A DNA stretch of 64,000 nucleotides from an uncultured Methylophaga sp. (GTDB lineage: Bacteria; Pseudomonadota; Gammaproteobacteria; Nitrosococcales; Methylophagaceae): NCBI GenBank assembly GCA_913055695.1, contig CAJXKF010000002.1:186001-250000 (forward strand), given 5' to 3'. Within the stretch, counting starts at the first letter, position 1. Every line of letters begins with the position of its first letter. A model generated the notes under the pieces. The model was not told the origin of the DNA. It saw nothing but the letters and a program-made list of their open reading frames with translations, and searched no databases. This document shows positions 20,258 to 22,298 of this stretch, in pieces. The translations under genes were made by a program, and so were the position numbers.

Positions 20258-20392
20258 TGCCAGCTTCCTGTTTATAACCCTTTTGGAGAATAGCGCTCTC
20301 ACTGGCTTCATTGCATGATGAATAATTGCTTGTGAGTGGGATCGAAACAAGCATAAAATTGCGCGCTTTTTACCTTTTTTTGGAGTGGAACA

Positions 20393-20944
20393 ATGTCAGA
20401 ACCCGTTTGGTTTAGAACCGGTGAAGCCACCGTGTTTGCCAGTGATGATCAGGGCACCGATGCGATGCCTGAAATTTTGATCGGCAGTGTCAAAGGCCCG
20501 GCAGGCAACGCTTTTGCCAACCTGATGGGACAAACAGAAGGTCATACCCGTATGTTTGCCATCCGTGCGACTAATCAACAGGTCAAACCGGCCACCATGA
20601 TTGTGCCCAAAGTGACTATCAAATCCGGTTCCTATGTTGCTTTGTTTGGCGGTGTTGTACAGTCAGCAGTGGCTGATGCGGTACTGGACAGTGTTATTGA
20701 GGGCGTGATTCCCAAGGAACATGCAGAAGAACTCTGCATTATTGCGATGATCTGGATCTCTCCGGAAGCGGCAGCCAATCCTGATGTGGACCGCAAAGAC
20801 TTGTACCGCACTAACTACGAAGCGATGAAACTGGCAATTCAGCGTGCGATGTCAGCTTCACCTAGCATTGATGAACTGATCAAAAACCGCAATACCATTC
20901 ATCACGAAATGTACAACCCGGAAACAGGCGAGTCACTCTGGTAG
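20393..20944 (+). CDS. Formaldehyde-activating enzyme (Fae) homolog lacking the catalytic His
   Basis: The 183-residue protein aligns by eye with Fae over its whole length: GEATVF, ILIGSVKGPAGNAFANLM, TRMFAIRATNQQVKPATMIVPKVTI, LFGGVVQSAVADAVLDSVIEGVIPKEHAEEL and NYEAMKLAIQRAM all have counterparts. Fae condenses formaldehyde with tetrahydromethanopterin in methylotrophs. In classical Fae the AHIDLIIG motif carries the His proposed as general acid. Here the same place reads AMPEILIG, so that His is Met. It is probably one of the divergent Fae paralogs, with a changed or lost activity. It stands alone, with TGGAG ahead of the ATG. Confidence 0.85.
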   Translation: MSEPVWFRTGEATVFASDDQGTDAMPEILIGSVKGPAGNAFANLMGQTEGHTRMFAIRATNQQVKPATMIVPKVTIKSGSYVALFGGVVQSAVADAVLDSVIEGVIPKEHAEELCIIAMIWISPEAAANPDVDRKDLYRTNYEAMKLAIQRAMSASPSIDELIKNRNTIHHEMYNPETGESLW

Positions 20945-20954
20945 TGATCTGCAA

Positions 20955-20984
20955 GCGACAGTCAGCTTTTCGGCTGACTGTCGC
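20955..20984 (+). terminator. Strong hairpin after the Fae homolog
   Basis: GCGACAGTCAGC and GCTGACTGTCGC form a perfect 12-bp stem with a six-base loop. No T-run follows, so termination is likely but not certain. Confidence 0.6.
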
Positions 20985-21329: not shown

Positions 21330-22298
21330 ATGAAAGTGCTGATTGTCGATGACGCAGAAATCGACACCTTACTTTGCCAGAAGATCGTCGAAAGCATCGA
21401 CTACCGTCCTATTGCAGTTTCTTCAGCGGAAGAAGCGCTGGAGATACTTCACAAACCCGGTGCGCCGGACATTATCATCATGGACTGGTTTATGCCCGGC
21501 GTGACGGGTATTGAACTGTGTGAACATATCCGCAGCATGCATCTCATGATCGAGCCTTTCATATTAATGATGACGGCCAACACCGATCGTCATGCCGAGG
21601 CCGAAGCACTGAATGCCGGTGCTGACGACTTTATCTCCAAGCCGGTCAACAGAATTGATATGGAAGCCAAACTCAGGCTGGGCAGACGACTTATAAAAAC
21701 CCAGCTGGAGTTGCTTGTTGCCAATCAGAAATTGCAGGAAAAACTGCAGCTTGATGCTGTGACCGGCATTATGAACCGGCAATCAGGACTCAAGGCAATC
21801 AGCTCAGCACTGTCAAGATTGTCACGTCAAAAGCAAAAACAGGGGCTTTTAGTCCACTGCCATGTTCGCCTCAGTCATAACAAACCGAGTCATTTCATGC
21901 ATGAACTGCATGACAAGATTTACATTGAACTGGCGCATCAGCTGGGTCAGATTTTGAGACAAAGTGACATTGTTGTCCGTTTCCGGGACGATGAGTTTCT
22001 GTTTTTTGCTGAGAGTGATCAGGCCAGTCATCAACAGCTGATGCAGCGTATTGAACGTGCCATCATGGGTAATTACGCCATAGAGAGCGACGCTGAGCCT
22101 TCTTTTTTGATAGCCGGCCTGGTTATTCGTCCGGAGCAGGGAATGACACCAGTCGAGAACCTGCTGCAGCAGACGGAAATCATTCTCAGCAATCTCCACG
22201 CTGACGGTAAACATGCAGAGTTGATTGCTTTATCGACTCACCGCAATACCCGCGTTGTCGATTTTTCTGATTATCGGCGTGCCCAGGGTAAACTTTGA
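21330..22298 (+). CDS. Response regulator with degenerate GGDEF domain
   Basis: The 322-residue protein has an N-terminal receiver (residues 1-120, phosphorylation Asp in IIIMDWFMPG, Lys in FISKPVN) and a C-terminal region with the GGDEF fold. The active-site loop reads RFRDDEFLFF, so the two Gly of GGDEF are replaced (FRDDEF). It is therefore unlikely to make c-di-GMP and may instead bind it or signal by protein contact. It stands alone between the Fae homolog and opgG, with no kinase beside it. Confidence 0.88.
   Translation: MKVLIVDDAEIDTLLCQKIVESIDYRPIAVSSAEEALEILHKPGAPDIIIMDWFMPGVTGIELCEHIRSMHLMIEPFILMMTANTDRHAEAEALNAGADDFISKPVNRIDMEAKLRLGRRLIKTQLELLVANQKLQEKLQLDAVTGIMNRQSGLKAISSALSRLSRQKQKQGLLVHCHVRLSHNKPSHFMHELHDKIYIELAHQLGQILRQSDIVVRFRDDEFLFFAESDQASHQQLMQRIERAIMGNYAIESDAEPSFLIAGLVIRPEQGMTPVENLLQQTEIILSNLHADGKHAELIALSTHRNTRVVDFSDYRRAQGKL

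Follow-up and report, generated by a model that had tools for sequence, protein, structure and literature searches.

A Methylophaga Fae-like protein with Met-Pro-Glu at the catalytic His-Ile-Asp site belongs to a conserved non-canonical paralogue class

The stretch of DNA analysed here (the window, 64,000 nucleotides from an uncultured Methylophaga sp.) carries an open reading frame, opened by ATG and closed by a single TAG stop, that encodes a protein of the formaldehyde-activating enzyme (Fae) family. Its features are collected in Table 1. The number of promoters found by the scan around this gene is not above that in shuffled sequence (shuffle mean 0.9); upstream conservation across 11 Methylophaga orthologues is among the strongest at CTTGTG/CTTGCG and CATAAAAT/CATAGAAT. 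Methylophaga has probably kept a sigma-70-like promoter for this gene. The inverted repeat behind the stop codon, for which the terminator scan gave no flag, is a possible transcript end.

Table 1 Features of the Fae-like gene and its flanks; positions are those of the window.
Feature	Position	Strand	Basis
AMPE-class Fae-like protein, 183 aa plus stop	20393..20944	+	sequence, profile and phmmer matches
Shine-Dalgarno GGAG, ATG 7 nt downstream	20382..20385	+	sequence
Likely promoter of the Fae-like gene, TTGTGA-N18-TAAAAT	20330..20359	+	promoter scan and upstream conservation
Perfect inverted repeat of 12 bp immediately 3' of the stop codon, lacking a T run	20955..20984	.	read from sequence
A24-MPEILI-G31 in place of AHIDLIIG	20462..20485	+	phmmer, MAFFT, residue table
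M25 codon, at the catalytic His place of Fae	20465-20467	+	alignment
G35-P-A-G38, in place of S32xxE35 within the PRGSxxE loop of canonical Fae	20495..20506	+	alignment
His51 codon (AM1 position 49), invariant in AMPE and AEPE classes	20543..20545	+	residue table
K73-V-T75 codons, common to canonical Fae (AM1 K71, T73)	20609..20617	+	residue table
Q90 codon (AM1 Q88), common to canonical Fae	20660..20662	+	residue table

The protein matches the Pfam Fae profile (PF08714) with 197.3 bits against a gathering cut-off of 27 (E 2e-58), residues 9-173 covering profile positions 1-158/159, and the original prediction that all main Fae segments align is thus borne out over the full length. It also passes the cut-off of the NCBIfam Fae equivalog (TIGR03126, EC 4.2.1.147; 141.9 bits versus 118.05), which does not separate the His-less classes described below from canonical Fae. 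Two features of TIGR03126 are altered: AHID, comprising the catalytic His and the next Asp, reads AMPE, and the PRGSxxE loop has Gly in place of S32 and E35 in all AMPE proteins. Alignment by phmmer to the solved Fae of strain AM1 (1y5y, E 6e-20) runs without gaps through the motif and sets A24-M25-P26-E27-I-L-I-G opposite A-H-I-D-L-I-I-G, a pairing that MAFFT reproduces identically; the replacement of AHIDLIIG by AMPEILIG, with Met at the catalytic His place, had been predicted exactly. The neighbours of this residue have changed too, from Ile to Pro and from Asp to Glu. The only His residues are 51, 110, 170 and 171, and because the first of them is residue 51, realignment cannot restore the catalytic one; comparison with the paralogues and the solved enzyme found no His at that place of the window protein. 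Chance or misalignment as the source of the missing His is therefore rejected.

With Fae of Methylorubrum/Methylobacterium extorquens AM1 (1Y5Y, 1Y60; EC 4.2.1.147) the window protein shares the Pfam family, the predicted fold and a full-length alignment, as well as the K/T/Q pocket residues, E11 and the conserved C-terminal His, whereas H22-I-D24 has become M-P-E, PRGSxxE has become xxxGPxG and F49 has become His. AM1 numbering follows the AM1 sequence, which agrees with the PDB chain alignment over the motif. From the structure work on 1Y60 we take the His at the H22 place to be the proposed proton donor, or general acid, of Fae, and D24, L53, K71, T73 and Q88 are presumably its pterin contacts. 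The AlphaFold model of the window protein (mean pLDDT 69.7) is predicted to adopt the Fae fold: Foldseek places 1y60/1y5y far ahead of all other matches (1y60_D, E 1.4e-9), and comparison with 1y5y_B gives a VIA Z of 15.9 and an rmsd of 2.8 over 138 aligned residues.

A set of 261 distinct Fae-family sequences, drawn from named genomes, from genomes sampled within the order, class and phylum, and from plasmids, falls into four residue classes without intermediates: H22-I/V-D24 (canonical Fae, n=95), M-P-E (AMPE, n=105), E-P-E (AEPE, n=56) and H-I-N (AHIN, n=5). M22-P23-E24 is present in 105/105 distinct orthologues of the window protein, E-P-E in 56/56 members of the sister paralogue, and H22 and D24 in 95/95 canonical sequences. 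In a tree computed with the signature columns left out, a single branch sets each class apart from all the others (SH-aLRT 96-99), with M-P-E and E-P-E as sister groups (support 97). The window protein, with M-P-E at 22-24, H49 and a place in this single clade, belongs to AMPE, an ancient non-canonical paralogue class well separated from canonical Fae. In every AMPE member the H-I-D catalytic triplet and the PRGSxxE loop have given way, under strong conservation, to M-P-E and GPxG, with a normal Fae encoded beside it in the same genome. The changes of S32 and E35 to Gly are class-wide, AEPE too has an altered PRGSxxE loop, and L53 has become Phe throughout M-P-E. The M-P-E proteins have E11, T66, K71, G85 and Q88 in common with almost every canonical Fae and likewise retain T73 and the C-terminal H164; the presumed pocket residues K71, T73 and Q88 are each found in 105/105 AMPE sequences.

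The AHIN proteins retain the His, have Asn in place of the Asp and also carry H49. In four complete genomes AHIN is the sole Fae class and there is no mch, so this class occurs without the tetrahydromethanopterin (H4MPT) pathway; at one locus its gene adjoins an aldo/keto reductase-like ORF. A subgroup of methanotroph Fae with the canonical His, seen at four loci, has D49 and E73, often with E88, which fall at what we take to be pterin-contact places.

Position 49 is His in all M-P-E, E-P-E and H-I-N proteins. Together with P23-E24 it is invariant in 161/161 AMPE and AEPE sequences, and nowhere among the 261 sequences is H22 absent without H49. The strictness with which P26-E27 and H51 are conserved would fit a rebuilt active site just as well; there His51 and Glu27 would replace the old His in a real enzyme carrying out a related C1-pterin reaction, be it exchange of C1 units between H4MPT and tetrahydrofolate or, with another pterin, condensation or hydrolysis. 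Fae homologues have been proposed to serve a tetrahydrofolate-linked or C1-shuttle role (PMC5023235; PMC11748545). On the other hand, H49 also occurs in five canonical and 5/5 AHIN proteins that retain H22, and thus it is not simply compensation for the loss of H22, a plain explanation of His51 that is weakened accordingly. Deletion phenotypes, described below, are mild or absent. Furthermore, the stretch 47-69 of the model, including H51, has pLDDT below 50, so that these medium-confidence models do not place His51 relative to the pocket; a regular strand from residue 53 would put H51, R53 and F55 on one face with the presumed ligand-contact residue. We consider a rebuilt site with E27 and H51 possible, if somewhat unlikely, and it is the main rival to the accessory role favoured below.

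That the gene is a decaying relic of a duplicated fae, as the loss of a catalytic residue might suggest, can hardly be credited. The 105 orthologues are intact, identity across orders is 79-91%, and between Methylophaga and Methylococcales the M-P-E proteins (79-82% identity) are more conserved than canonical Fae itself (66-69%) at equal distance, with E-P-E at 69-74%. Pseudogene status is ruled out by this conservation; the dN/dS of 0.015 obtained for AMPE carries no weight, dS being saturated. Identity between the window protein and the canonical Fae encoded in the same genome is 28%.

The source genome (2.6 Mb, with Methylophaga as its closest named relatives) encodes three members of the Fae family, namely a canonical Fae (AHIDLIMG, G000:C10) whose gene has mch about 2 kb away, the AMPE protein of the window and an AEPE protein (AEPEVVIG, G000:C2 at 412 kb). 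Three such genes are also found in most complete Methylophaga genomes, partly as judged by bit score and length. Among the sampled genomes at least 90% complete, no M-P-E or E-P-E gene was found without canonical fae (G003 being checked by sequence), and mch is present in every AMPE or AEPE genome tested. In Azoarcus KH32C, in Aquabacterium olei and at locus L192 the AMPE gene lies directly 3' of fhcBADC, with pabB and a HAD phosphatase gene coming next; because it directly follows fhcBADC in these three loci, AMPE belongs to the H4MPT pathway. In some Methylobacter-type contigs the distance from it to canonical fae and to genes for the H4MPT cofactor is about 4-5 kb.

The neighbourhood also bears on whether the protein is a formaldehyde or C1 sensor acting through protein contacts on a regulator or a chemotaxis system. 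Signalling or sensing has been proposed for Fae-like proteins (PMC3728764; PMC11748545), a response regulator-GGDEF fusion gene with the signature RDDEF follows the AMPE gene in the window (21330-22298, +), and in Azospirillum oryzae a chemotaxis receptor gene adjoins it. However, over 92 AMPE loci no neighbouring gene is common to several families, and the response regulator-GGDEF gene is rejected as a conserved partner for want of repetition. In gammaproteobacteria the AMPE gene stands alone and appears monocistronic. We regard the sensor as quite unlikely.

Several other observations were made on these loci. In Methylobacterium aquaticum 22A a MetH-like (methionine synthase-like) ORF (L182, 1011-4763) precedes the AMPE gene by about 1.2 kb. 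No phage-borne AMPE copy was confirmed in viral contigs, and six plasmid records (L183-L188) annotate His-less M-P-E proteins as 'fae: formaldehyde-activating enzyme'. The AEPE gene adjoins a truncated-globin gene in Methylophaga (among ten loci, including that of the source genome), lies between gmaS of the N-methylglutamate pathway and a globin gene in Methylobacterium sp. DM1, and stands in the gene order mgsABC-gmaS-AEPE at another locus (L199). Streamlined genomes of 1.0-1.1 Mb (six loci) retain canonical fae and AEPE, which suggests a strongly needed function. In one Methylophaga genome (L294, G003:C10) a stretch of some 16-20 residues of the canonical Fae (TILLMKLMTALSVVGC) is read out of frame; the probable cause is either an error of sequencing or a recent pair of frameshifts.

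Published mutants can be mapped onto these classes, with the reservation that the names fae2 and fae3 are used inconsistently from paper to paper. The fae2 gene of M. aquaticum 22A (Maq22A_1p31155) would be the M-P-E gene in L182, judging by replicon, single match and expected position. Its product reads TDAMPEVLIG, is 61% identical to the window protein and is an AMPE orthologue by position, although it is alphaproteobacterial and megaplasmid-borne. According to PMC7356819, whose consulted passages make no mention of the missing His of Fae2, loss of fae1 abolishes growth on methanol despite an intact fae2, and the fae2 mutant grows more slowly and to a lower yield on methanol. This result weighs against an ordinary, redundant Fae that can simply do without the His, as does the joint change of motif and loop, fixed in the clade; such an enzyme could pass the equivalog cut-off (142 versus 118 bits) and match the 1y60/1y5y fold (Z 15.9) as the window protein does, but we find it very improbable.

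Fae3 of Methylotuvimicrobium alcaliphilum 20Z (MEALZ_RS07105) is likewise a non-canonical Fae-like protein without the His, but it belongs to the sister AEPE class (E22-P-E), the three fae genes of that genome (G469) lying where the three locus tags would place them, and the AMPE gene is absent there. As described in PMC11748545, this fae3 neither relieves methanol sensitivity nor restores growth in AM1 lacking fae1, and its deletion causes no phenotype and no growth defect. Carrying these results straight over to the window protein is rejected, since they concern AEPE and not AMPE. Poor expression could also explain the failed complementation. In Methyloversatilis, fae3 rises about 10-fold on methylamine, and no growth defect is seen in mutants of fae2 or fae3 (PMC5023235). 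One Methylophilaceae ecotype is reported to have the full H4MPT pathway and a fae2 but no true fae (PMC4109929); if that fae2 belonged to the AMPE class, some activity would be implied. The earlier suggestion that the window protein does not carry out the normal Fae condensation thus finds indirect support in the clade-wide motif change, in the failure to replace fae1 (PMC7356819) and in the failed complementation by the sister paralogue (PMC11748545). That AMPE does not replace Fae is strongly suggested. The roles put forward earlier, a sensor, a carrier or an enzyme with another acid, all agree with the retention of the presumed pterin-pocket residues and with the invariant new His51 and Glu27.

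AMPE may well be an accessory protein binding H4MPT or methylene-H4MPT, or a sensor of H4MPT-linked formaldehyde oxidation, and not an ordinary Fae. The protein would bind H4MPT or methylene-H4MPT in the old pocket and, lacking the general-acid His, would give no useful speed-up of formaldehyde condensation. Instead of serving as the entry enzyme it would tune flux or formaldehyde tolerance, binding C1-pterins in an accessory role as carrier, buffer or sensor. The retention of K71, T73 and Q88 in all AMPE proteins, the universal M-P-E and the presence of canonical fae beside it argue for this accessory role, as does the M. aquaticum fae2, which cannot replace fae1 and yet slows growth on methanol when lost (PMC7356819). 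A bolder proposal, which we think unlikely, is that AMPE and AEPE together form a distinct enzyme family in which the Fae pocket has been turned to a new reaction on C1-pterins, for instance exchange of C1 units between H4MPT and tetrahydrofolate, and in which Glu27 and His51 form a new catalytic pair, AMPE being tied to the H4MPT pathway and AEPE to N-methylglutamate methylamine oxidation.

Fae-like proteins of unknown function are already known, and the window protein joins this uncharacterised group. Close to it in description are the Fae-like Groups 2-4 of PMC11748545, compared here through the text of that paper, whose function is stated to be unknown and for which sensing or folate-linked roles are suggested. 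The additions made here are the residue rule, the linkage to fhc and the mapping of published mutants onto two His-less classes; in the literature searched, which covered few subscription papers, no statement on the missing His of Fae-like proteins was found. The role of the extra Fae homologues in methylotrophs is debated between sensing, folate-linked transfer and redundancy (PMC3728764; PMC5023235; PMC11748545). The rule of H-I-D versus M-P-E versus E-P-E sorts these homologues cleanly, and it exposes the automatic annotation that names their His-less members 'formaldehyde-activating enzyme'.
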